Source of the DNA: Paenibacillus sp. G2S3
Lineage (GTDB): Bacteria; Bacillota; Bacilli; Paenibacillales; Paenibacillaceae
DNA length: 64,000 bases
Assembly: GCF_030123105.1 (NCBI RefSeq)
Contig: NZ_CP126095.1
Location: 6,386,001 to 6,450,000, forward strand
Direction: 5' to 3'
This document shows, piece by piece, positions 2,151 through 33,980 of the stretch; positions within the stretch are counted from its first letter, which is position 1; each line of letters opens with the position of its first letter. Made by a program: the position numbers and the translations under genes. Below the pieces are notes generated by a model, which saw only the letters and a list, made by a program, of their open reading frames with translations, was not told the origin of the DNA and ran no database searches.

Positions 2151-2209
2151 GAGGCCACCTACCTTTACCGCCGACACACGTTGTGCTAGACAATTTTTAC
2201 AACCATTTC

Positions 2210-2215
2210 ATTATA
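2210..2215 (-). promoter_or_regulatory. Extended -10 element before mprF
   Basis: The minus strand reads TGTTATAAT here, a perfect TATAAT preceded by TGn. It lies about 60 bases upstream of the mprF ATG. No good -35 hexamer is seen at 17 bases, as is usual for extended -10 promoters. Inferred from sequence only. Confidence 0.4.
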
Positions 2216-2333
2216 ACAATTATTGGAATAAAAAACCCATGATAATCAACACCTACTACATTAGACTGCCAACACAGCCCTAATCCCTGCAATAGAACAC
2301 CGAAACTGTAGTTTACACGTAAAAATGCACAAC

Positions 2334-2366
2334 AAAAAGGACATCCCTCACGGCAAAGGATGCCCT
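2334..2366 (-). terminator. Rho-independent terminator of the FlxA-like gene
   Basis: On the minus strand GGGCATCC pairs with GGATGTCC around a short loop and is followed by TTTTTG. It sits about 30 bases after the stop of the small gene at 2398. Confidence 0.75.
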
Positions 2367-2397
2367 CCCTGTTATGTAGCACGGATCTAACTAGCGT

Positions 2398-2748
2398 TTA
2401 TACTCGAATATCAAATCTACCTTTGCTATCCGTTGTTGCGGTAGCGATCTCTTGCGGACTTGCTGCAGCAAGCGCATTGTTCGCAGGTTTAGCAGGCGCC
2501 TCTACACCACTGCCTGCGGTGGAAGTACTGCTCTGAGTCTTCTGCGAGATTTGTGCCTCGATGGTCTTAATCTGTTGCTCAATTTGCTTCGTTTTCGTTT
2601 CCTTGGTCTTGTCATCGTCTGAGCTGGCATTAATCTTGTCTAGTTCAGCTTCCAGCTTCGCTTTTTGTTTCTCAAGCGTACTGGTATCTGTAGCGCTAGA
2701 TGTCGAGGTAGTATACGATGTGGAACCTGAGACTGCGGATATACTCAT
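2398..2748 (-). CDS. Small FlxA-like coiled-coil protein
   Basis: A 116-residue protein. The N-terminus is serine/threonine rich, the middle (about residues 20-70) is a charged heptad-like coiled coil rich in Lys, Glu, Asp and Gln, and the tail is Ala/Pro rich. This layout matches the FlxA-like family, whose role in Gram-positive bacteria is unclear; in enterics flxA is co-regulated with flagella. Three starts are possible. I chose the ATG at 2748 because GGGAGG lies six bases upstream of it; the ATG six bases earlier abuts that site, and a TTG at 2775 has none. It is a single gene with its own terminator. No membrane segment or signal peptide is visible. Confidence 0.6.
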   Translation of the reverse strand: MSISAVSGSTSYTTSTSSATDTSTLEKQKAKLEAELDKINASSDDDKTKETKTKQIEQQIKTIEAQISQKTQSSTSTAGSGVEAPAKPANNALAAASPQEIATATTDSKGRFDIRV

Positions 2749-2859
2749 GGTCATCCCTCCCTTCCTTACCTCCAATATAATCCTTTTGCAAGTAAGGAAC
2801 GTTAAGACCCGCTGAAAGTTTGCTGAAAGTACTCCATGCTAGGTTACAACGAGAGACTG

Positions 2860-4092
2860 CTAGGAGCTTGCTTTTCCTCGTCTAACAAGCAGCAGATAAG
2901 ATAGAATCGAGAGAATTCCTGTACATGCCATCACAATCGCCATCGGAAGTGCGGATTCAACTCCCCCAAGACCCACAAGTGGCGCTACACAGCTACCTAG
3001 CAACAGGGGTATTAATCCGATTAACGCCGAGGCACTGCCTGCAGTTTCGCCTTGATCTTGCATCGCCAGTGAGAAGCTGGTCGCTCCGACAATCCCTACA
3101 CTGGAGACAACCGCAAATAGACAGATCAGAATAGGGATCAGTCCTCCTCCTACTAGAACCGTTAGCAGTAGCAAGATGCCCCCCATCGTACAGAGCAATA
3201 GTCCACTAAGTAGCAGCTTAGTCTCACTTACCTTTCCAGCAAGTCTGCCGGCTATTTGGCCAGTAATAATAATCCCGATCCCATTCACTGCAAAGATCAG
3301 ACTATATACTTGCGGGGTAACCGCAAAAATATTTTGCAATACAAAAGAAGAACCTGAGATATACGCGAACATAGATGCCGTAACGAAACCTTGAGACAAG
3401 GCATAACCCATAAACTTACGGTTGCCCAGCAATACCCGGAAGGTAAGCAATGTACCCTTCAGTCCACTCTTAGAGCGTCGCTCCTTCGGCAGCGTCTCCG
3501 GCAAGCGCAATAAAATAGTTAAACAAAAAATAATTCCGGCAGCAAATAATACGAGGAATATCCCTTTCCATGTAGTCACTCTTAACAGCTGGCCCCCAAT
3601 AACTGGTGCTAATATCGGTCCGAGACCATTCACAATCATCAATAGTGAGAAGAACTTCGTGAGTTCAGAGCCACTATATAAATCACGAACAGCCGCTCTA
3701 GAGACAACCACCCCCACTGAGCCAGCAAGGCCTTGAATAAACCGCAAAACGATCAGCAGTCCAATCGAAGGACTAAAGGCACATAGCACTGAGGAAACGG
3801 CGTAGATGAACATACCTATAAGCAGCGGACGACGGCGACCATATACATCACTCAGCGGTCCAGCGACCAACTGACCTGAAGCAAGCCCCAGCAAAAAGAA
3901 GGTCAGACTAAGCTGCACTAAAGCAGCGGTCGTACCGAAATCCGAGACAAGCGTAGGCAGTGCCGGCAAATACATATCAATCGACAACGGGCCGATCGTT
4001 GTAATGGAGCCGAGAATCACAGCCAACTGTAATCTCTGCTTCCGTGAGGGTCCATCTGCGGCAAGCTTATTACCATTTTGAATTCCAATCAT
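2860..4092 (-). CDS. Bcr/CflA family multidrug efflux MFS transporter
   Basis: A 410-residue, 12-helix proton-driven exporter of the major facilitator superfamily, DHA1 subgroup. The helix 1 signature SIDMYLPALP (residues 37-46) is characteristic of Bcr/CflA proteins, and the loop 2-3 motif GPLSDVYGRRRPL (78-90) is the MFS motif A. Length is usual for the family (about 400). The ATG at 4092 has AAGTAAGGA upstream. It is transcribed alone in the same direction as the mhq cluster, but the mhqD terminator separates it. Substrate cannot be told from sequence; family members export bicyclomycin, chloramphenicol or sulfonamides. Confidence 0.85.
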   Translation of the reverse strand: MIGIQNGNKLAADGPSRKQRLQLAVILGSITTIGPLSIDMYLPALPTLVSDFGTTAALVQLSLTFFLLGLASGQLVAGPLSDVYGRRRPLLIGMFIYAVSSVLCAFSPSIGLLIVLRFIQGLAGSVGVVVSRAAVRDLYSGSELTKFFSLLMIVNGLGPILAPVIGGQLLRVTTWKGIFLVLFAAGIIFCLTILLRLPETLPKERRSKSGLKGTLLTFRVLLGNRKFMGYALSQGFVTASMFAYISGSSFVLQNIFAVTPQVYSLIFAVNGIGIIITGQIAGRLAGKVSETKLLLSGLLLCTMGGILLLLTVLVGGGLIPILICLFAVVSSVGIVGATSFSLAMQDQGETAGSASALIGLIPLLLGSCVAPLVGLGGVESALPMAIVMACTGILSILSYLLLVRRGKASS

Positions 4093-4208
4093 GATCCTTA
4101 CTTCAACCTTTCTAAAGCAACCCTTGGGCCTTTTTTTGTATTCTTCATACTAACGTAAAGGAAGTAAATTGATCAATCCTTTTATGAAGGGCTACGAGCG
4201 CTTGTGTA

Positions 4209-4237
4209 ACAAAAATAACCGCCATTCGGCGGTTATT
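4209..4237 (-). terminator. Terminator of the mhqPOD operon
   Basis: ATAACCGCC and GGCGGTTAT form a perfect 9-bp stem with a 4-base loop, followed on the minus strand by a run of T. It begins 10 bases after the mhqD stop. Confidence 0.85.
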
Positions 4238-4246
4238 CTGATTGTT

Positions 4247-4867
4247 TTATGCATTTGTAGATGTGCTGCACATTTGCAACCAATCTCTAGCGGCTTCAGC
4301 CTCAGCAACACTCAGGCGATGACCTTGGTTGCCCCAGTGTGTTGTAACCTCTGCGCCTGCCTTCTGAAAAATAATCTCCAAATCCTCAGTCTCCGAAGAA
4401 GCGATAAGCGGATCATTTGTGCCTGCTCCGATGAAGATAGATACTCCTTCCAGTGAAGGAAGCGTAATATTCCGAAGCGGTACCATCGGATGCAGTAGAA
4501 TTGCAGCGCGGAAAACATCCTTATAATGGAACAGCAGGCTACCTGCAATGTTCGCACCGTTAGAGTAACCCACGGCAACCAGATTGTTGGCATTGAAACC
4601 ATATTGCGCTGCGGCTTCATCCAGAAACTGCTTGATCTCGTGAGTACGGAAGATTAGATCTGCTTCATCGAATACCCCTTCGGCTAACCGTCGGAAGAAC
4701 CGCGGCATACCATTCTCCAGCACATTCCCTCTGATGCCTAGCACCGATGAATCAGGAGATAACAACCCGGCAAGCGGCAGCAAGTCCTGCTCATTGCCTC
4801 CAGTCCCGTGAAATAATACAAGCGTGGGTTTCGTTACATCTTTACCTTTATGGAATACATGAATCAT
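4247..4867 (-). CDS. mhqD: Carboxylesterase-type alpha/beta hydrolase, MhqD-like
   Basis: A 206-residue cytoplasmic hydrolase of the YodD/MhqD carboxylesterase group. Visible parts are the oxyanion-hole motif HGTGGN (20-25), nucleophile elbow GYSNGA with Ser102, Asp152 in GTNDP, and His183 in GHR, making a complete Ser-Asp-His triad. In B. subtilis mhqD is induced with the ring-cleaving dioxygenase mhqO by catechol, hydroquinones and diamide under MhqR control. Here its ATG overlaps the mhqO stop by four bases (ATGA), so the two are translationally coupled. The natural ester substrate is unknown. The symbol rests on the conserved cluster and similarity remembered from B. subtilis. Confidence 0.82.
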   Translation of the reverse strand: MIHVFHKGKDVTKPTLVLFHGTGGNEQDLLPLAGLLSPDSSVLGIRGNVLENGMPRFFRRLAEGVFDEADLIFRTHEIKQFLDEAAAQYGFNANNLVAVGYSNGANIAGSLLFHYKDVFRAAILLHPMVPLRNITLPSLEGVSIFIGAGTNDPLIASSETEDLEIIFQKAGAEVTTHWGNQGHRLSVAEAEAARDWLQMCSTSTNA

Positions 4868-5814
4868 CCCTGCTTCACCTCAATTTCTCTTATTTGAAAA
4901 GGACTTAAATTTTCTTCGATAGCCGCACGATGCGGTTCATACCAAGATGGCAGCATCAGCTTCTCACCCATGGCATCCACTGCTTCATCACGGGCAAAGC
5001 CCGGAGGATCCGTAGCAATCTCGAAGAGGATTCCACCTCTTTCGCGGAAATAGATCGCATTAAAGTATTGGCGGTCTTGAACCGGTGTTGGATGATGTCC
5101 ATGACTCTGTATATGACGCCCCCATTCCAGCTGCTCAGCGTCGTCTTGTGCACGCCATGCGATATGGTGAACGGTGCCTGTACCTCCTGCTCCTTGCGGA
5201 ACCGGTGTTGTCTTCAGATCAATAATATTACCCAAATCGCCAGTAGTTCTATAACGACTATATCCGTCTCCATCAGCGATATGCTTCATTCCCATCGTAT
5301 GGACAAGCGTTTCTGCAGTTTGCAGCGGATTGTTGCTGTAGAGCACAGCACCACCGAACCCTTTGATAGCATGCTCGGTTGGAACCCCACCGAAAGACCA
5401 TTTACTAAGCGGTCCTTCCTCACGTTCCACCAGTTCAATGCGCAATCCGTCATAATCAGCAAAGGATAGATAAGATTCCGAGATTCTATTCTTAAGAGTA
5501 ACCGGAATTTGATATGAAGCAAGACGCTGTTCCCAGAATGACAGAGAGCCCACTGGTACTGCGTAAGTCGTTACGCCAACTTGCCCACTGCCGATTCTGC
5601 CTTTACGACCAATAGGTGAAGGGAAAAAGGTAATAATCGTTCCCGGAGCACCTACTTCATTCCCAAAATATAAATGATAAACTTCCGGAGCGTCAAAATT
5701 AATCGTCTTCTTCACAAGCCGTAGTCCTAGAATACCGGCGTAGAAGTCAACGTTGCGCTGAGCATCTCCAACAAAAGCGGTAATATGATGAATTCCTGCA
5801 GTTTGAAGTGTCAT
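4864..5814 (-). CDS. mhqO: Ring-cleaving extradiol-type dioxygenase, MhqO-like
   Basis: A 316-residue protein of two vicinal-oxygen-chelate modules, the fold of Fe(II) extradiol dioxygenases. Probable metal ligands are His9/His10 (GIHHITA), His216/His217 (TVHHIAW) and Glu265 (ILFEIATD). The family (MhqO, YkcA, YfiE) is thought to open hydroquinone or catechol rings and so detoxify quinone precursors. The ATG has AGAAGGAGG upstream. It is the middle gene of mhqP-mhqO-mhqD, 17 bases after mhqP and overlapping mhqD. The gene downstream of a probable MhqR operator supports the naming. Confidence 0.87.
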   Translation of the reverse strand: MTLQTAGIHHITAFVGDAQRNVDFYAGILGLRLVKKTINFDAPEVYHLYFGNEVGAPGTIITFFPSPIGRKGRIGSGQVGVTTYAVPVGSLSFWEQRLASYQIPVTLKNRISESYLSFADYDGLRIELVEREEGPLSKWSFGGVPTEHAIKGFGGAVLYSNNPLQTAETLVHTMGMKHIADGDGYSRYRTTGDLGNIIDLKTTPVPQGAGGTGTVHHIAWRAQDDAEQLEWGRHIQSHGHHPTPVQDRQYFNAIYFRERGGILFEIATDPPGFARDEAVDAMGEKLMLPSWYEPHRAAIEENLSPFQIREIEVKQG

Positions 5815-22984: not shown

Positions 22985-25900
22985 CTACTCAAATAGCTGT
23001 TCCAATTTCTCTATATGTAACTCTGCGGTAGAAGGAACCCATAGCTCAGCACTCTCTTTCAAGGATGGACTTCCCGCTCCAACCGACCTCATCCCAGCGG
23101 CTTTGATGGCAGCTATTCCCACCTCGGTATCTTCGATACCTACGCAGCAGTCAGGTGATATCCCCAGCATCTCGGTGACCTGTAAATAAATTTCCGGATC
23201 TGGCTTGCCCATACGGATGCTTTTGGGATCAACAATCGCCTGAAACAAGCGCCCAATCTTCAGGCGTTCAAGAATCAACATCGCATTCTCATTGACTGAA
23301 GCCAGCCCGACAGGGATTCGCTTTTTTTTCAAAGCGGTCAGCAGTCTATGGATACCCGGGTGCAAATCATCCGGTGTCATTTGTTGAATCAATTCTTTAT
23401 ACTTTTCATTCTTTTTGTTGCAGAGCATTCCTTTTACCGGTTGGGGTAAATTCAGGCCACTTCCCTCGAGTAGGATCTCTAAACATTCCATTCGACTATG
23501 GCCCTTCAGACGTTTATGCTTCTCTCTATCAAAACAAATCGCAAGCTCATCAGCTAAAGCTTTCCAGGCCAGATAATGATGCTCACCAGAATCAGTAATA
23601 ATTCCATCCAGCTCGAAAACGACCGCCTCAAGCTGCTTCACATTTGAAAGGGACAACGACTTCTTTGCAGTAAGCTGTACAAGGCTTCCCTTATGTAGAA
23701 TCTCAATTTCTTCACCCACCAGTAGTGTATAAATGACTACTTTATTATCAACATATATATCCAATAGCTGCCCACCGCTTGTTATTTTAAACCGATAGCT
23801 GTCCCATTGGGCTGGCAAGGCAGGATTGAAGGATAGCATACCGCCACATAAGCGCATCCCACCAAACCCATTTACAATTGACAGCCAGGAGCCTGCCATA
23901 GCTGCAGTGTGCAGCCCATCCTTCACGTTGCGGTTAATATCATCTAAATCCATCCGTACCGTGCGGTCAAAATAGGCGTACGCCCCCGTTAAATCACCAA
24001 TTTCAGCAGAAATAATACTGTGAATGCACGGTGACAAAGAAGAATCATGTGTCGTCAGCGGCTCATAGTAATTATAATTGCGGATCTTGTCCGCCAAGCT
24101 GAACTGATCGCCCAGCAGAAACATGGCCATCACCAGATCCGCCTGTTTGAGCACCTGATGGCGGTAAATCACCAACGGATGGTAATGAAGCAGAAGAGGA
24201 TATTTATCTGCTGGCGTATGTTCAAAGTCCCACTTCTGCTTCGTCAGAAATGTATCATCCTGAGCATAGATGCCAAGCCCCTCATCAAAAGGAATATACA
24301 TCTTCTCCGCGGCCATTAGCCAATCACTAGGTTCTTCTTCAGTTAGCCCAATCTTGCGCTTCAGGCGTTCAAAATGCTCCGGATACTGCTTGCCGAACAG
24401 TATGGCTATCTCATGTGCATAAAAGAGTTGATCTCGTACCATAAGATTGGTGTACGCGTTATTGTTAACGATAGCTGTATACTCATCGGGACCCGTTACC
24501 GCGTCAATACAGAACGCTCCCTCCCTAGCCGGATTGAAATGACCCAGATCTACCCAAAAGCGCGAGGTCTCGAATAGCATTTCCGCTCCCTTCTGGACCA
24601 GAAACTCATAATCGCCAGTAGCCCGCACATACTGTTTAATGGCATAGGCAATATCCGCGTTAATATGCATTTGTGCCGTTCCTGCCGGAAAATAGGAGGA
24701 GTTCTCAGCCCCATCTATGGTGCGCCAAGGATATAGCGCTCCCTTCTGAGACATTACCGCTGCTCGCTCCCTCGCCTTATCTAACGTGGCATAACGAAAC
24801 TCGAGCAGCTTCCGGCTAATTTCCGGCTGTGTAAACGTAAAGAAGGGTATCATGTACATCTCGGTATCCCAGAAATAGTGACCTTCGTATCCTTCACCCG
24901 TCAGGCCTTTGGCTCCGATGTTCGTAACCCCGTCACGTCCTACGGATTGCAGCAATTGAAAAGCATTAAAGCGAATACCCTGTTGAAGCGCAGGATCGCC
25001 CTGAATCTCCACATCGGTATGTGCCCAGAAATGATCCAAATAAGCCCGTTGTTCATAAACAAGAGCTTCAAATCCACTATTCTCCGCTAAATGCAGCACT
25101 TCCAAGCACTTACTTAACAGCTCGTCTTCTATGTAATCCTTAGAGGTGTGATACGAAATGTATTTGGTCAGGGAGATCCTTTCCCCCATAGCCACTGGAA
25201 CAACCCATTGCATAGATAATCGCTGGCCCTCTAGCTGCACGAGTCTTTCATATCCAGAGCTACTGTCCAGACTGTGGCTTATCCCTGTTAAAAGAGCAAA
25301 CTGGGTATGCCGTGTCCGCTGCTTCATCCACAAAAAGGACTGCTCCAGTTCATGACCGGTATCCACGAGCAGCAAACTGGGTTCCTTACTCCCCGAACCA
25401 AGCCGGGGGTCATCCGTCACCCCCGGCCTTTGAATCTCACCATCAATCGATGAAGTGAATGTTAGGTGCCCCTCAAAATTCAATGCCTTGACCTCGTAAT
25501 CTATGGCCGCTAAATGTTTATGCTGCAAGGCCACCATCCGCCGAATGCTCACCTGTACCCTGTGTCCGGCAGGAGATTCCCATTCTACCTGCCGATGCAA
25601 GATTCCATTTCGCATATCCAGCTTCCGTTCATAACGATGCACTTTTCCACTATTTAGCTGAAAGGTATGACCCTCAATGCTCAGCTCAATAATCTTGGCA
25701 TCTGTTACGTTCAGCATTGCTTGATTGCGGGAAGGATACCCATAAGCTCCCTCTGGGTACACAATAGGCTCGGAATCAAAGAATCCATTCAAATAGTTCC
25801 CTGTTACAGATGAGCCGGAGTGGCCATGGTAACCTTCCTCGAAATTACCGCGCATGCCAATATATCCATTACCAAGCGCAAATACACTCTCGCTTCTTTG

Positions 25901-25990
25901 ATTGTTCTCTTCATCATAATTTTCCTCATCTAGACTCCACTCCCGGTAAGGATATACTGCAGCCGGATGTACGTATGGTTTCATCTTCAT
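22985..25990 (-). CDS. GH65 disaccharide phosphorylase fused to a degenerate beta-phosphoglucomutase domain
   Basis: A 1001-residue fusion. Residues 1-780 are a glycoside hydrolase family 65 phosphorylase (maltose, trehalose, kojibiose or nigerose type), which splits an alpha-glucosyl disaccharide with phosphate to beta-glucose 1-phosphate. It shows TGEGYEGHYFWDTEMY (364-379), the catalytic acid Glu503 in TGPDEYT, and the phosphate-binding THDSSLS (647-653). Residues 786-1001 are a HAD domain of the beta-phosphoglucomutase type, the next pathway enzyme. The HAD nucleophile Asp is Glu793 (FELDG instead of FDLDG), while Asp795, Lys929 and Glu953-Asp954 remain. The LASxSKN motif is altered to LASVNEN. 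So the second domain is probably not an active mutase. It ends the alpha-glucoside transport cluster. Confidence 0.9.
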   Translation of the reverse strand: MKMKPYVHPAAVYPYREWSLDEENYDEENNQRSESVFALGNGYIGMRGNFEEGYHGHSGSSVTGNYLNGFFDSEPIVYPEGAYGYPSRNQAMLNVTDAKIIELSIEGHTFQLNSGKVHRYERKLDMRNGILHRQVEWESPAGHRVQVSIRRMVALQHKHLAAIDYEVKALNFEGHLTFTSSIDGEIQRPGVTDDPRLGSGSKEPSLLLVDTGHELEQSFLWMKQRTRHTQFALLTGISHSLDSSSGYERLVQLEGQRLSMQWVVPVAMGERISLTKYISYHTSKDYIEDELLSKCLEVLHLAENSGFEALVYEQRAYLDHFWAHTDVEIQGDPALQQGIRFNAFQLLQSVGRDGVTNIGAKGLTGEGYEGHYFWDTEMYMIPFFTFTQPEISRKLLEFRYATLDKARERAAVMSQKGALYPWRTIDGAENSSYFPAGTAQMHINADIAYAIKQYVRATGDYEFLVQKGAEMLFETSRFWVDLGHFNPAREGAFCIDAVTGPDEYTAIVNNNAYTNLMVRDQLFYAHEIAILFGKQYPEHFERLKRKIGLTEEEPSDWLMAAEKMYIPFDEGLGIYAQDDTFLTKQKWDFEHTPADKYPLLLHYHPLVIYRHQVLKQADLVMAMFLLGDQFSLADKIRNYNYYEPLTTHDSSLSPCIHSIISAEIGDLTGAYAYFDRTVRMDLDDINRNVKDGLHTAAMAGSWLSIVNGFGGMRLCGGMLSFNPALPAQWDSYRFKITSGGQLLDIYVDNKVVIYTLLVGEEIEILHKGSLVQLTAKKSLSLSNVKQLEAVVFELDGIITDSGEHHYLAWKALADELAICFDREKHKRLKGHSRMECLEILLEGSGLNLPQPVKGMLCNKKNEKYKELIQQMTPDDLHPGIHRLLTALKKKRIPVGLASVNENAMLILERLKIGRLFQAIVDPKSIRMGKPDPEIYLQVTEMLGISPDCCVGIEDTEVGIAAIKAAGMRSVGAGSPSLKESAELWVPSTAELHIEKLEQLFE

Positions 25991-26054: not shown

Positions 26055-27146
26055 TCAGCCTTTTATCGACCCACCCATAAGCCCTCTGACGAAATACTTT
26101 TGTAGCAGGAAAAAAATAGCGAGCGGCATCAGCATGGAGATAAAGGCAGCCGAGGTGAGTAAATGCCAATCGTTGCCTCGTGAGCCTACTAAATCGGCAA
26201 TTTTCATCGACATGACCTGCACAGACGGTTGATTGCCGATAAAGATCAGCGAGACTAAATAATCATTCCACACCCATAGGAATTGAAAGATTCCGATAGA
26301 AGCCAGTGCGGGCACAGATAACGGTAGAATCAGCCTGCTGAAAATAGTGAAATGACTCGCCCCATCCATAAAAGCCGACTCGAACAAATCCTTAGGCAGC
26401 TGACTGATAAAGTTATACATAAAGTACGTAACTAGCGGTAATCCAAAGGCCGTATGCGCCAGCCAAATGCCCAAGTAGCTTCCGTTCAATCCAAGAGCCG
26501 TATAATCTTTAAGCACTGGAATAAGTGCTACTTGGATTGGAATAACGAGCATAGCGATAATGATGACAAAGAGTGTTCGGCGCCCAGGAAAACGCAGCCA
26601 AGCAAAAGCATAGGCGGCAAAAGAAGCAATCAACACCGGAATAACCGTTGCTGGAACTGCAATCGTCAATGTATTCCAGAAGGCTTGCGACAATCCGGTA
26701 CCTTTTTGCACCGTTTCACTGCCATCGGCTTGCTTGAGCTTGTATTCCTTACCCGAGAGCACGTTATTGTAGTTATCCAATGTGAGATCCGGTGTCATTT
26801 TCCAGCCTTGTTCCTGTTGATTTATCGTACGCGCTCTACGGTTCTCCCACATCAAACGACTGCCATCGGCCTTCACGCCTGCCTTCAGCTGATCATCTGA
26901 ATAGGTTTTACCGTTCACCTCAATCGGCTCCCGCAGATCCACGTCCTTCGATAGCTGAATGGTCTCTCCAGCCTTCCACTCCTGATGGGGAAAAGCTTTC
27001 CACCACCCAGTCTGCAGAATATCGGCAGCCGGACGAAAGGAGGACATGAACAGTCCAAGGGTCGGAAGCAGCCAAATGAAACAAATCACACCCAGCACGA
27101 TATTAACAATCGTCTTGCTGCCTTTTCTCTTCTTTTTCCCGGCCAT
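26055..27146 (-). CDS. Alpha-glucoside ABC transporter permease, AglG/MalG-like
   Basis: A 363-residue sugar permease. After helix 1 (about 12-34) there is an extracytoplasmic insert of about 120 residues, then five more helices. The EAA loop (ESAFMDGASHFTIFSRLILP) contacts the ATPase. The insert is known from AglG-type alpha-glucoside permeases and distinguishes it from plain MalG. Its ATG shares one base with the preceding permease's stop. No ATPase is encoded here, so a shared MsmX/UgpC-type ATPase elsewhere is expected, as is usual in Bacillota. Confidence 0.87.
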   Translation of the reverse strand: MAGKKKRKGSKTIVNIVLGVICFIWLLPTLGLFMSSFRPAADILQTGWWKAFPHQEWKAGETIQLSKDVDLREPIEVNGKTYSDDQLKAGVKADGSRLMWENRRARTINQQEQGWKMTPDLTLDNYNNVLSGKEYKLKQADGSETVQKGTGLSQAFWNTLTIAVPATVIPVLIASFAAYAFAWLRFPGRRTLFVIIIAMLVIPIQVALIPVLKDYTALGLNGSYLGIWLAHTAFGLPLVTYFMYNFISQLPKDLFESAFMDGASHFTIFSRLILPLSVPALASIGIFQFLWVWNDYLVSLIFIGNQPSVQVMSMKIADLVGSRGNDWHLLTSAAFISMLMPLAIFFLLQKYFVRGLMGGSIKG

Positions 27147-28270
27147 TAGAATCCCCCTTGCTTACGGAACTGACGTAGATTGATTATGATCACAGGCAAT
27201 ACTGCAATCAGCAGAACAATGGCTAATGTAGAGCCGTAACCGAAATTTCGGTACATAAAGAACTGCCGGTAAAACTGTGTGGCCACTACCTCTGTATCGT
27301 ATTGACCTCCTGTCATGACCATGACGACGTCAAATATTTTCAGCGTAAAGACGATAATGGTCGTTGTCACAGTCAGAATGGTTGCTGAAATGTAAGGGAT
27401 CATGATTCCAAAAAATATTTTCACCTCATTAGCACCATCCACCCGTGCGGCTTCCAAAATGTCGTCAGGAACTCCCTTGATGGCTGCCGAGAATATCACC
27501 ATCGCAAATCCGGTCTGCATCCAAATCAGAATGATGATGAGGAAAAAGTTATTCCACGGCTGAAGCATACTCGTCCATGCCTGTGGTTCTCCCCCAAAAT
27601 AAGTAACGATGGCGTTCAATAGTCCAATTTGTTCATCACCGGGTTGATAGTAATATACAAATTTCCAAATGACCCCTGCTGCGACAAAGGAAATGGCCAT
27701 CGGCATAAAAATGATCGATTTGGCGATTTTCTCATAGCTGCTGCGATCGGCAAGAATTGCGATTAAGAGCCCGAATGCCACACAAGCCAGCGTACCCACA
27801 AATACCCAAAGTAAATTGTTACGCAATGCCGTTGCCATCAGATGATCGCTAAAGATAGCCGCATAATTGCTCAGACCTACAAATTTCTCTGAAGAAGCAT
27901 TAAAAAAGCTCAAATACAGTGTTCGTAGCGCAGGCAGGACAAGTAACCAGCCCAAAAGTATCACTGCCGGACCAATAAAGATATATGGCAGCACCTTGCG
28001 CCGGATATGATCCGGGTACTGTTCAACCGCCCATGTAAGCGTATAGTAAATCAGATAAACTCCTAGAACCCCCCAGAGAACAGCCAGTACCGCTGTTAGC
28101 AGCGGATTTAATGTGGAATCCCGGAAGAACAGAAAGATTGCGCCGTTAACAACAACATTGGCTAACAACACTACTAAGGACAGCAATACCGCCTTCAGGC
28201 TAACGGATTGCCTTGCCTGTGGTTGTGCCTGCATTTGTGGTTGTGGTTGTGGCTGTGATTGTGCACCCAT
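27146..28270 (-). CDS. Alpha-glucoside ABC transporter permease, AglF/MalF-like
   Basis: A 374-residue permease with about eight helices. The EAA loop reads EAARVDGANEVKIFFGIMIP. The first 20 residues are an unusual Pro-Gln stretch (QPQPQPQ and variants), cytoplasmic by charge. GGAGGAG stands upstream of the ATG. It follows the binding-protein gene after a terminator-like hairpin and overlaps the next permease by one base, so the two permeases are made at a fixed, lower ratio to the receptor. Confidence 0.87.
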   Translation of the reverse strand: MGAQSQPQPQPQMQAQPQARQSVSLKAVLLSLVVLLANVVVNGAIFLFFRDSTLNPLLTAVLAVLWGVLGVYLIYYTLTWAVEQYPDHIRRKVLPYIFIGPAVILLGWLLVLPALRTLYLSFFNASSEKFVGLSNYAAIFSDHLMATALRNNLLWVFVGTLACVAFGLLIAILADRSSYEKIAKSIIFMPMAISFVAAGVIWKFVYYYQPGDEQIGLLNAIVTYFGGEPQAWTSMLQPWNNFFLIIILIWMQTGFAMVIFSAAIKGVPDDILEAARVDGANEVKIFFGIMIPYISATILTVTTTIIVFTLKIFDVVMVMTGGQYDTEVVATQFYRQFFMYRNFGYGSTLAIVLLIAVLPVIIINLRQFRKQGGF

Positions 28271-28377: not shown

Positions 28378-29802
28378 TTAGTTGTTCCAGCCAGACTGGA
28401 TTTGCTCTAACGCCTGATCCAGCGTCGCTGTACCACTCACGTAGTCGGTCATACCCTTCCAGAAGGTCCCTGCACCCACTTTGCCCGGCATCAGGTCTGA
28501 GCCATCAAAGCGGAGTGTGGAAGCATCTTGAACCAACTTCGCCATACGGCGGTCGGATTCAGAAGTGTACCAGTCAAGGGAGGCATCATTCATTGGAGCA
28601 ATTACGCCGCCAGACTGTACCCAGCTCTTAATGGACTCACCAGTCGTGAAGAATTCCATAACTGCACGAACTTCAGGACGATCGTTAAACATAGCGTAGA
28701 TATCGCCAGCAACTAGCACTGGTTTGCCATATTGAGGATCAATAGGCGGCAGGTAGAACCAATCATAATCTACGTCAACCTTTGCCGTTTCAGGGAAGAA
28801 GCTTGTAATAAAGTTGCCGAGCATATTAAACCATGCTTTAGGAGGATTATTGAACATTGGCGCTGGAGCATCCCCGAACGATGTCGTCACAATGGATTTA
28901 GCACCACCGTAAACATAATCCTTGTTGAGCCAGATTTTGGACATAACTTCTACTGCATTCTTCACTTCTGGAGAGGTAAATGGCAGCTCACCCTTTACCC
29001 ATTTATCGTAGTTCTCAGGTGTAGTTGTGCGCAGCATTATATTTTCTACCCAGTCTGTTGCTGGCCAGCCTGTTGCAGCACCACTCTCGATTCCAATAGC
29101 CCAAGCAGGATCACCGTCTTTAGCAATTTGTTCTGTCAGAGCCATCATCTCATCCCATGTCTCAGGAACCTTGTAGCCTGCTTCATCAAATTGCTTCTTT
29201 GGATACCAGACCAAGCTCTTTACGTTACTGCGGTTCCAGATCCCCGCCATGATCTTGCCGTCTTTCCCATCCATGTTAGACATATCGAGCCAGCTCTTGT
29301 TGTAATTAGCCGTCAATTTAGCTTGATCCAGCACATTAGTTAAATCGATAACCTTGCCAGTCTTAGCAATGGAGGCTAGCAGTCCCGGCTGCGGGAAGTC
29401 AGCGATATCCGGAGCATTTCCCCCATCTACTCGAATGTTTATCGTAGCTTCGAACTCTTTTGAGCCCTCGTATTGAATATCAATTCCTGTCTTCTCTTCA
29501 AACTCTTTAATACTATTCTCAAATTTCACTTGGTCCGCATCTACAAAGGGGCCGAACATCGTTACTTTAGTTCCTTTATAGTCCCCTTTCATAGCTAGCT
29601 CTAGCGGAGACCCCGCAGGCTCGGTACTAGGAGCAGCTGTAGCTTCCGCGGTGTTATCTGCTGTTGGGCTGGCAGTTGCTGCAGGTGGATCTGTAGTTGC
29701 TGCATTGTTGCTATTACCTCCGCCACATGCACTCAGCATCATAGTGAAGGATAAACACAGTACTAAAGCCAATGACTTTTTACGTCCTGAGGTTTTCTTC
29801 AT
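28378..29802 (-). CDS. Alpha-glucoside-binding lipoprotein, AglE-like
   Basis: A 474-residue extracellular solute-binding protein (family 1). The signal peptide ends in the lipobox LSAC with Cys26 as lipid anchor, followed by a low-complexity Ala/Thr/Pro linker (about 30-65). The mature part resembles AglE-type receptors for alpha-glucosides (ADFPQPGLLASIA, WYPKKQFDEAGYKVPETWDE). The start is set at the ATG at 29802; the longer frame to 29958 would place 52 residues ahead of the signal peptide. It is first in the operon and preceded by a promoter with a cre and an operator. Confidence 0.9.
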   Translation of the reverse strand: MKKTSGRKKSLALVLCLSFTMMLSACGGGNSNNAATTDPPAATASPTADNTAEATAAPSTEPAGSPLELAMKGDYKGTKVTMFGPFVDADQVKFENSIKEFEEKTGIDIQYEGSKEFEATINIRVDGGNAPDIADFPQPGLLASIAKTGKVIDLTNVLDQAKLTANYNKSWLDMSNMDGKDGKIMAGIWNRSNVKSLVWYPKKQFDEAGYKVPETWDEMMALTEQIAKDGDPAWAIGIESGAATGWPATDWVENIMLRTTTPENYDKWVKGELPFTSPEVKNAVEVMSKIWLNKDYVYGGAKSIVTTSFGDAPAPMFNNPPKAWFNMLGNFITSFFPETAKVDVDYDWFYLPPIDPQYGKPVLVAGDIYAMFNDRPEVRAVMEFFTTGESIKSWVQSGGVIAPMNDASLDWYTSESDRRMAKLVQDASTLRFDGSDLMPGKVGAGTFWKGMTDYVSGTATLDQALEQIQSGWNN

Positions 29803-29963
29803 CTTTTGTACATCCCCTTTAATGGTTTTAGAGATTGCTTCTGACTCAATCATCCGGTACCCTGGCATGTATAAGCAGCTTGTAGCAGACCACCTCCTTG
29901 CAAAGCTTTTCAAGATCAAAGGATCTATCCTAAAAAAGAATCGAATCACAAGTTCCACTTAAT

Positions 29964-30134: not shown

Positions 30135-31139
30135 TTACTTCTCCCGTGTAGATTCCCGCACAATCAGCTTATGCTCCATCTTCTCATTCAATACCTGCAC
30201 TTCTCCTGTTGTAAGCAATTCATGCAGCTTCTCGGCTGCACGATACCCTAACTCGTAAATTGGCTGTGCAATCGTAGTTAGCTTCGGGATGAACATACTC
30301 GACATCCTTAGATTATCAAACCCAACCACGGATACCTGACCCGGAACAAGAATATTACGATCCTTCAGATAAGAAATCGTCCCCATCGCGAATTCATCAG
30401 CAACACAGAAAACAGCAGTTAGCTCAGGGTAATCGGTAAATAGTTCATGTGCAGCTTGATAAGCATGTTCAAACCGATGACTAGCATATTTGCTCTTCTC
30501 AATATTCTGCTGTAACCCCGACTCTGTTAGTGCTCTTACAAATCCCTCATAACGTGGTGGTCCTGATACGGAATTATCATGGTTAAAACCAATCATACCA
30601 ATGTCTTTATGACCTAAATCAATTAGGAACTTTACCGCATCATAGGCAGCCGCTTCATCATCCACCTCCACACTTGGAATGTCGAATTGATCGGAATGCG
30701 AGGACACTAGTACAAATGGAATTCTACAACCTTCCAATTTGTCATGATATTCAGGGTAAAGAAAATCACTGGCGAATACAATGCCATCCACCTGTTTCTC
30801 ATGGAAGTTATCAATATAGGACAGTAGTCGTTCTTTGTCGCGGTCCGTATTGCAGATCATTAAACTGTACCCAAGCTTGATGCAAGCATCCTGCATCCCC
30901 CGAATCACCCCTGCGAAATACAGGTTCTCAATATCCGGAATAAGCAGACCCAGTGTAAAGGACTTCTTGTAAATCAGACCACGTGCAAATGAATTAGGTT
31001 GATACCGCAATCGTTCTACAGCCTCCATCACTCGATTCCGTTTGCTCTCCACTACCGAATTCGGTGCATTCATAACACGTGATACTGTGCTAATCGACAC
31101 CTCGGCCATTCTGGCAACATCTCTTATGGTTGGCTTCAT
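30135..31139 (-). CDS. LacI-family repressor of alpha-glucoside use
   Basis: A 334-residue regulator. The HTH and hinge (1-55) include TIRDVARMAEVSISTVSRVM and ARGL, and the rest is a periplasmic-binding-like sugar-binding core. The start at 31139 is set by AAGGAAG ahead of the ATG and gives the exact LacI N-terminus; the longer frame adds 22 unrelated residues. It lies directly upstream of the receptor gene on the same strand. Matching 13-bp sites before it and before the receptor imply that it controls both. Inducer probably the imported disaccharide or a derivative. Confidence 0.9.
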   Translation of the reverse strand: MKPTIRDVARMAEVSISTVSRVMNAPNSVVESKRNRVMEAVERLRYQPNSFARGLIYKKSFTLGLLIPDIENLYFAGVIRGMQDACIKLGYSLMICNTDRDKERLLSYIDNFHEKQVDGIVFASDFLYPEYHDKLEGCRIPFVLVSSHSDQFDIPSVEVDDEAAAYDAVKFLIDLGHKDIGMIGFNHDNSVSGPPRYEGFVRALTESGLQQNIEKSKYASHRFEHAYQAAHELFTDYPELTAVFCVADEFAMGTISYLKDRNILVPGQVSVVGFDNLRMSSMFIPKLTTIAQPIYELGYRAAEKLHELLTTGEVQVLNEKMEHKLIVRESTREK

Positions 31140-31214
31140 AATGATAACTTCCTTTTTTAGGGAACTTTTCGAAGTGATTATAGCAAGCCCGATGGGAAAT
31201 AACAATAGAATTTT

Positions 31215-32687: not shown

Positions 32688-32885
32688 TTTCTATTTTATT
32701 AACGCCGTCCTCTCCTTTCGTTCTTCTGGAGATTTCGGCGTAGATGCAGCGAAGTAGTACCTTGCGAAACTACTTATTTCGACAATGTAAGATGGAATAA
32801 TCGATTTGAACGGAGAATTTTGCCGGAAGCCCGCACATTTTGTTCGCCAACAGCTAATTGGGCTCAGGAGAGAGGAGCGAGGAAA
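32688..32885 (+). other. Structured 5' leader of the LPNTA protein gene
   Basis: The leader contains stem ACGCCG (32702-32707)/CGGCGT (32736-32741) enclosing TCTCC/GGAGA, then stem AAGTAGT (32752-32758)/ACTACTT (32769-32775), then a C/G-rich stretch before the ribosome binding site. It does not match a riboswitch class I can name with confidence. Confidence 0.4.
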
Positions 32886-33980
32886 GTGAAGAAGAAATAT
32901 CGCTCGGCCTTCATTGCTGCTTATGCTCTGATTATTCTAGTAGGAGTAATATGGCAGGCTGGAGGGGTAAGCGCTCAGGATACCATTAAGCTTACTGTGA
33001 ATTCTCATAGCACGAGTACAGCCACCATGAACAATATGAAGCCTGGTGACGAAATGAGCTCAGAGTACACGATTATTAATGATGGCACAGAAGGCTTTGA
33101 TTACTTTGTGGACTTTAAATTCATCTCTGGAGACGTAGAGTTGTACAATATCCTCCAAATGACACTCGAAAAAGAGGGAGTAATCATCTATTCGGGAGTA
33201 ATGAGTGAGGCAGCTGGCAGAGTGACTATCGGTTCACTTGCTGGAGGTGAGCAGAGTGTCATCCACATGGATGTAACTTTCCCATGGGAAGCCGGCAACG
33301 AATACCAAGGGAAGGCCACAACCGTAGCTTTTGAATTCTCCGCTTCCGGAGAACCAGGTCCATCCGCCGAGCCTACTTCAACACCAACGCCAACAGCGAC
33401 GGTTGCACCTACACCTGATCCATCACCTACAGCTACAGCTACAGCTACAGCTACAGCTACAGCTACAACTGAACCGACCACAACACCTACTGAAACACCA
33501 TCAGCTACACCTGAAGCTTCACCGACACCTACAGTTGCACCAACCACAACACCTACAGATTCACCAACGACTACTGCTTCGCCAACTACGACACCTACGG
33601 ATTCACCACCAGCTACAACTTCACCTACAGCTATCGTGACACCAGGTCAATCGGCGCAACCAACACCATCGCCGACACCTACGGATTCACCACCTGCAGT
33701 AGATGAAATTAGCGTTACTGAAGAACCGATCCCAATGGGCGGAAGCGGTAATGAGTCTACACCTACAGCGTCACCAGGTGCTGGTAGCCAAACCACCAAT
33801 GCAACACCTCAGCCAAGCGATGAAGTATCGTTACCTGACGGAGAGATTCCTTTGGGAGCACCAGAGGCAGGGAACAAGCTTCCAAATACCGCTGAGCCTT
33901 GGTACAACTTAATTCTTGCCAGCTTAGCTATTGCAGTAATCAGCGTAATCATCATGCGCAGATTGAGATCTAAGAAATAA
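32886..33980 (+). CDS. Sortase-anchored cell-wall protein with LPNTA signal and Thr/Pro stalk
   Basis: A 364-residue secreted protein. Signal peptide 1-31 (cleavage after VSA), an extracellular beta-rich domain of about 125 residues (32-155), then a long Thr/Pro/Ser stalk (about 158-300) including a (TA)n run coded by a hexanucleotide repeat. The end is LPNTA (332-336), a hydrophobic helix and a basic tail. LPNTA is the motif of class D sortases, and such a sortase is the next gene. The start is a GTG with GAGGAGCGAGG upstream; the frame continues 22 codons further without support. The N-terminal domain function is unknown. Confidence 0.85.
   Translation: MKKKYRSAFIAAYALIILVGVIWQAGGVSAQDTIKLTVNSHSTSTATMNNMKPGDEMSSEYTIINDGTEGFDYFVDFKFISGDVELYNILQMTLEKEGVIIYSGVMSEAAGRVTIGSLAGGEQSVIHMDVTFPWEAGNEYQGKATTVAFEFSASGEPGPSAEPTSTPTPTATVAPTPDPSPTATATATATATATTEPTTTPTETPSATPEASPTPTVAPTTTPTDSPTTTASPTTTPTDSPPATTSPTAIVTPGQSAQPTPSPTPTDSPPAVDEISVTEEPIPMGGSGNESTPTASPGAGSQTTNATPQPSDEVSLPDGEIPLGAPEAGNKLPNTAEPWYNLILASLAIAVISVIIMRRLRSKK
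33427..33462 (+). repeat. CTACAG hexanucleotide tandem repeat
   Basis: Six perfect CTACAG units followed by CTACAA, coding for alternating Thr-Ala in the stalk. Slippage would change stalk length without shifting frame. Confidence 0.85.

Follow-up and report, generated by a model that had tools for sequence, protein, structure and literature searches.

The C-terminal HAD domain of a GH65 phosphorylase of Paenibacillus sp. G2S3 belongs to the beta-phosphoglucomutases (bPGM) but has lost the nucleophile of that family, and we regard it as probably (about 0.6) a pseudoenzyme domain of single origin: a retired mutase that would be kept as a folded, non-catalytic module, probably binding a metal or a ligand. 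Glu stands where bPGMs carry the nucleophilic Asp. A whole clade of fusions shares this state and conserves most of the remaining active site; stand-alone pgmB genes are present in the same genome, and relatives are found in which the same operon has no tail.

The fusion gene lies in a window of 64,000 nucleotides, which is the whole stretch of DNA that was analysed (contig NZ_CP126095.1, positions 6,386,001 to 6,450,000). On re-reading, the coordinates, strand and extent of its open reading frame proved exact. The gene and its domains are:

22985..25990, minus strand: fusion of a GH65 phosphorylase and a bPGM-like HAD domain, 1001 aa, ATG start
25139..25927, minus strand: GH65 N-terminal domain, residues 22-284 (PF03636, 225 bits)
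23885..24973, minus strand: GH65 catalytic barrel, residues 340-702 (PF03632, 415 bits)
24482..24484, minus strand: Glu503, the GH65 general acid by alignment (GPDEY aligned to Lactobacillus brevis maltose phosphorylase), invariant
23672..23857, minus strand: GH65 C-terminal domain, residues 712-773 (PF03633)
22988..23635, minus strand: bPGM-like HAD domain, residues 786-1001, predicted to be without bPGM nucleophilic catalysis

Pfam recognizes the N-terminal, catalytic and C-terminal GH65 domains in order, followed by HAD_2, and the NCBIfam model for bPGM (TIGR01990) scores the fusion at 213.2 bits against a cut-off of 189.4. The full-length protein was modelled with AlphaFold2 (pLDDT 86); in the model of the HAD domain the bPGM fold, with its core and helical cap, is intact and matches Lactococcus lactis bPGM at 1.2-1.5 A. 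On the phosphorylase side, Glu503, which we take to be the GH65 general acid, and K615-Q616 and HDSSLS, presumably the phosphate-site motif, align with maltose and kojibiose phosphorylases, so that the motifs of an inverting GH65 phosphorylase appear to be present. Residues E503, K615, Q616, H648, S650 and S651 are identical in all 105 rows compared, which comprise fusions with Glu or Asp at the HAD nucleophile position (Glu-type and Asp-type), unfused proteins and more distant adjacent ones. The maltose and kojibiose phosphorylases of known structure (1h54, 3wiq) resemble the fusion in their domain order and in the motifs of the general acid and the phosphate site, but they have no C-terminal HAD domain and their acceptor-side loop differs from that of the fusion.

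Catalysis by bPGM involves Asp10 in acid-base chemistry and Glu169-Asp170 as the metal site, with further catalytic roles for Thr16, His20, Lys45, Lys145 and Glu169. Asp8 is described as the nucleophile (PMC11283535), the distal phosphate is held in crystal structures by Ser116, Asn118, Arg49 and the Lys117 backbone, with the Lys117 side chain recruited as a surrogate at this site, and the sugar is contacted by Trp24, Gly46, Ser52 and Lys76 (PMC9171722). Alignment to L. lactis bPGM places these positions in the fusion as follows:

23612..23614, minus strand: Glu793 (codon GAG), replacing the nucleophile Asp8
23606..23608, minus strand: Asp795 (Asp10 position), kept; 21/21 Glu-type domains
23285..23305, minus strand: distal-phosphate loop LASVNEN, residues 896-902 (Ser116 to Asn, Lys117 to Glu); Asn900 in 21/21 Glu-type domains and 0/79 others
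23204..23206, minus strand: Lys929 (Lys145 position), kept; 21/21 Glu-type domains
23129..23134, minus strand: Glu953-Asp954 (Glu169-Asp170, metal site), kept; Glu953 in 21/21 and Asp954 in 20/21 Glu-type domains

The sequence-only reading had reported the motif FELDG with a GAG-coded Glu793, the loop LASVNEN and the persistence of Asp795, Lys929 and Glu953-Asp954, all of which the re-reading and the alignment bear out. At the distal phosphate site, the equivalents of Arg49 and Asn118 are retained and Ser116 is Asn. Ser114 is likewise kept in 21/21 Glu-type domains, and the V47, A115 and K117 sites are altered. In the Glu-type domains position 117 is occupied by Glu, Gln or Asp; in the Asp-type fusions it is Leu in 35/55 and Lys in only 4/55, and since it is altered in 51 of these 55, the site had loosened before the Glu conversion.

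The replacement of Asp8 by Glu together with the altered Ser116 should abolish bPGM turnover. It is very unlikely that the domain is still a functional bPGM in which Glu serves for Asp: the remaining catalytic residues are in place and the model lies close to the L. lactis enzyme, but the distal-phosphate Ser116 and the Lys117 side chain are both replaced, the longer side chain of Glu would push the phosphate out of position, and a D8E mutant of L. lactis bPGM was reportedly described in 2005 as inactive.

The Glu state was traced across homologues by several routes. A search with the HAD part within full-length proteins recovered 34 further fusions, and the nucleophile position in these and the query is Glu in 16 and Asp in 19 of the 35. 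Among distinct fusions read from DNA, Glu was found in 8/46, encoded by GAG in seven and by GAA in one. When genome loci were added and duplicates removed, the tabulation came to 76 distinct fused HAD domains, 21 with Glu and 55 with Asp; all 24 stand-alone or operon-adjacent HAD domains compared carry Asp. The change of Ser116 to Asn is fully linked to Glu, occurring in 21/21 Glu domains and in none of the other 79 (55 Asp fusions and the 24). What had been taken for an oddity of one protein is instead the fixed state of a clade. The sequence-only reading had also considered that most fusions might carry Asp, with this one due to a sequence error. The Asp majority is real (55/76); a sequencing or assembly error, the chance of which is practically nil, is ruled out by 21 of 76 distinct fused domains sharing Glu, encoded by GAG in some and by GAA in others.

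When the tree is computed from the GH65 part, a region free of the trait, the Glu rows come together in a single clade (22/22, SH-aLRT 100) that is surrounded by Asp fusions; the tree was built by a quick method without bootstrap and carries a long-branch warning for the distant rows. The Glu group was recovered again in a second tree with 21 rows. By these trees, the swap from Asp to Glu has a single origin, at the base of one clade within Paenibacillus. Reversion to Asp needs one base, from GAG or GAA, and is seen in 0/21 Glu-type domains, and none of the full-length Glu-type rows has a truncated HAD domain. One metagenomic Glu-type protein, P0013, is also without the Lys45, Arg49 and Asp170 residues, reflecting either further decay or poor sequence.

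Outside the fusions, Glu was sought in stand-alone bPGMs by a domain-only search, whose 78 matches comprise 72 with Asp, one with Ala, four without the position and one with Glu. The lone Glu match (P0036) derives from the same fusion, of which it is a fragment that also includes the GH65 C-terminal domain, and one of the four without the position (P0037) has the Glu-type loop LASVNEN. The Ala match, P0095, is a stand-alone homologue with the motif FALDG and thereby another candidate pseudo-mutase. A pattern scan for FELDG and the following motif matched 9/394 genomes of the family, seven through known Glu-type fusions and two (G023, G387) through stretches whose surrounding residues are not HAD-like by eye; the scan undercounts, since it missed the motif IIADS of G081. 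A second pattern, for the loop, proved too degenerate to be informative: it matched 345/394 genomes, and its reversed control was about as frequent by eye.

Selection on the domain was assessed from pairwise comparisons and from trees. For the Glu group (21 pairs), the median pairwise dN/dS (NG86) comes to 0.183 in the HAD part and 0.089 in the GH65 part, and Asp-type pairs of similar depth (173 pairs) give 0.187 and 0.109, respectively; as the HAD value is the same in both groups, it cannot alone separate a retired from an active domain. The HAD/GH65 ratio of dN is 2.24 in the Glu group versus 1.13 in Asp pairs. Tree lengths were compared over 66 rows with 40 site bootstraps, leaving out the distant fusions P0028-P0035, L052 and the broken or partial GH65 rows, including the Glu-type L055. 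The HAD/GH65 tree-length ratio is 1.44 (1.06-1.84) in the Glu clade, 2.7 (1.7-4.2) on its stem and 0.86 (0.68-1.04) in the Asp rest, which gives a ratio of ratios of 1.65 (1.18-2.25) for the clade versus the Asp rest. The raised ratio means that constraint on the HAD part has been partly relaxed: the rate rose sharply when the conversion took place and constraint stayed partly relaxed afterwards, but the domain is far from neutral evolution.

The remaining pocket was examined by parsimony. Twelve other catalytic residues of the L. lactis enzyme (D10, T16, H20, K45, R49, K76, S114, N118, K145, P146, E169, D170) show 7 changes in the Glu clade versus 21.3 in random 12-site sets (P 0.009), 4 versus 18.6 when the deviant P0013 is omitted (P 0.004), and 4 versus 36.4 in the Asp group. 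Eight further sites, at the nucleophile and in the substrate loops (D8, W24, G46, V47, S52, A115, S116, K117), show 15 changes in the Glu clade against 14.2 at random, i.e. no slower than random sites, with zero change at the D8, W24 and S116 positions; for the Asp group the corresponding figures are 8 and 24.2 (P 0.04). Neither test is blind, because the set of twelve was already in use and the set of eight was picked after viewing the domain comparison, and the active-site constraint could reflect the fold instead of ligand binding.

These rates bear on the main rival explanation, slow decay, according to which a redundant mutase is drifting to loss and the remaining constraint serves solely to keep a misfolding tail from damaging the phosphorylase. 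The relaxed rate of the Glu clade and the burst on its stem speak for decay, as do the absent and broken tails of relatives presented below. Against it stand the constancy of Glu793 in every Glu-type domain, the slow change of the twelve catalytic residues, the dN/dS of 0.18 and the lack of truncated HAD domains among full-length Glu-type rows, and we consider it rather unlikely. The pseudoenzyme reading agrees with these data in that an essential residue, conserved in the parent family, is lost while purifying selection persists on the domain and its catalytic set; the largely retained pocket and the invariant Glu argue that the pocket still matters. The sequence-only reading had called the domain dead or repurposed; repurposed fits better than decaying, given the full length, a dN/dS of about 0.18 and the constraint on the twelve residues, with the qualification that the rate is partly relaxed.

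The genomic setting of the fusion is an operon of five genes, in the order LacI regulator, binding protein, two permeases and GH65. The neighbours of the fusion gene are:

26055..27146, minus strand: ABC sugar permease, MalG-like by sequence reading, same operon
27146..28270, minus strand: ABC sugar permease, MalF-like by sequence reading, same operon
28378..29958, minus strand: ABC sugar-binding protein by sequence reading, same operon; listed start GTG, true start probably downstream
30135..31205, minus strand: LacI-type regulator, upstream of the operon; listed start TTG, true start probably downstream

This order is kept in 12/12 loci examined, of which two are Glu-type, four Asp-tailed (one of them decayed) and six tailless, and the binding protein and permeases at these loci are 82-97% identical to those of the window. 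Among the genus loci opened, an unfused orthologue is found in 18 genomes (no HAD match in the stretch fetched); in one of these (L059) the GH65 gene is split over two frames. The Asp-type fusion L052 (G060, 2469-5381) has a HAD domain with a large deletion and an altered motif (GVIAGTAGLHDQ), and its tail is apparently in decay. At L026 (G030) / L078 (P. jilunlii), an in-frame TAA (3916-3918 of L026), soon after the nucleophile motif, splits the GH65 part of an Asp-type fusion from the HAD remainder; a remainder of 196 aa is also on record as a protein of P. jilunlii (P0041). The same operon thus occurs with an Asp tail, a decaying tail or none, which makes the tail dispensable in these relatives, and the position of the unfused L067 and L072 within a fully supported group of Asp fusions means that tail loss has happened. 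A Glu-type metagenome locus, L055 (G044, 2196-5138), has its GH65 in three frames and an intact HAD part, in a genome that is 72% complete.

The reaction expected of the tail could be covered by other genes. The genome of G2S3 holds four stand-alone pgmB genes over the cut-off, three of them adjoining other GH65 genes, and FDLDG and SxSKN are intact in all four; the sequence-only reading had suggested looking for an active pgmB elsewhere. A bPGM match above the cut-off is present in 100/100 genus genomes searched, fused copies counted, and the eight Glu-type genomes have 3 to 6 bPGM matches each (E up to 1e-40) among the matches listed. In G080, two bPGM matches (G080:C1:794792 and G080:C1:6993135) fall within open reading frames of 978 and 729 aa, respectively, which may be further bPGM fusions of this genome.

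We propose that a bPGM with a complete catalytic set was fused to a GH65 phosphorylase, and that the Asp nucleophile became Glu and the distal-phosphate loop was remodelled in the common ancestor of a single clade of Paenibacillus. The HAD tail most likely stopped performing the bPGM reaction, and beta-glucose 1-phosphate from the phosphorylase would pass to the stand-alone pgmB enzymes that the genome encodes at other loci. The tail would be kept as a folded module with its remaining pocket residues under selection, and it would most likely bind a metal or a sugar phosphate, or pack on the phosphorylase, in a non-catalytic role that is regulatory or stabilizing. The earlier suggestion that the tail is dead or repurposed and not a channelling mutase is supported by the clade-wide loss of the nucleophile, the intact-motif pgmB genes and the tailless relatives with the same operon.

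Tentatively, Glu could instead be a new working residue, either of a HAD enzyme acting on a different phosphosugar or of a sensor for beta-glucose 1-phosphate that gates its own phosphorylase; such a sensor would close on its ligand without turnover. A new role is compatible with the data in that most of the metal and phosphate pocket is kept, and the substitutions at the nucleophile and at Ser116 coincide on a single branch and have persisted since. The boldest proposal is new chemistry, in which Glu793 would coordinate magnesium and act as nucleophile or base in another reaction, phosphoryl or hydrolytic and perhaps slower. It could draw on the near-invariance of Glu8, Asp10, Ser114, Lys145 and Glu169-Asp170 in the Glu-type domains together with the changes at V47, A115 and K117, but the reported inactivity of D8E and the lack of Glu in stand-alone homologues with a readable position (24/24 Asp in one set; 72 Asp and one Ala in the other, the P0036 fragment aside) make it improbable.

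The GH65 part was also compared between Glu-type and Asp-type fusions, which differ over one short stretch:

24641..24670, minus strand: Met441-Ala450, bounded by two near-fixed differing GH65 positions

Only positions 441 (Met/Ala) and 450 (Ala/Gly) are near-fixed (>90% each) for different residues in the Glu and Asp groups. Ala450 occurs in 21/21 Glu-type, 14/20 unfused and 3/44 Asp-type rows, and Met441 in 21 Glu-type, 6 unfused and 2 Asp-type of the same rows; with only four independent pairs, the coupling to the HAD state cannot reach significance and is suggestive only. By alignment, position 441 follows the specificity loop discussed in PMC8537180, and it may lie on the acceptor side. 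The same paper places PrGP of P. riograndensis in GH65 'subgroup 9', with its natural substrate unknown (PMC8537180); PrGP may belong with the GH65 group described here.

Among the closest known systems are the Asp-type Paenibacillus GH65-bPGM fusions, which are alike in architecture, HAD family and operon (four examined), with GH65 parts 66-80% identical, but which keep Asp8 and Ser116 (55/55) and have a HAD part that evolves more slowly relative to GH65. In P. sonchi, P. albidus and other species they carry the name beta-phosphoglucomutase; for the Glu clade this label, in curated models and public names alike, is probably wrong. Unlike the stand-alone bPGMs (L. lactis PgmB, B. subtilis 3nas), the Glu-type domain has Glu for Asp8 and an altered distal-phosphate loop, and is fused to the upstream enzyme. 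A next-step enzyme that was fused and then retired is known from plant sucrose-phosphate synthase and trehalose-phosphate synthase, whose inactive phosphatase-like HAD tails are eukaryotic and belong to a different HAD subfamily from bPGM. In the accessible text of the literature searched, neither a Glu nucleophile in bPGM nor this GH65-fused tail is reported, and a fused mutase does not come up in that of the GH65 and phosphorylase papers.

Within one conserved operon, the same phosphorylase occurs in four natural states: Asp-type fused, Glu-converted, with a decaying tail and with no tail. This series makes it possible to test directly whether the fusion of consecutive sugar enzymes is important for channelling, and also what a retired domain does once its chemistry is lost. 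More distantly, GH65-HAD fusions (L115, L119, L121, L153; GH65 part 40-44% identical) were found in Clostridia and related MAGs, beside many operon-adjacent pairs of GH65 and HAD genes; these four lie outside the set of 76 domains and their motifs read FD. By this distribution, the GH65-HAD fusion may have arisen more than once. Elsewhere in the window, 32820-33980 reads as a surface-type ORF in which a long Pro/Thr/Ser-rich stretch precedes an LPNTA motif and a membrane segment lies at the C terminus.
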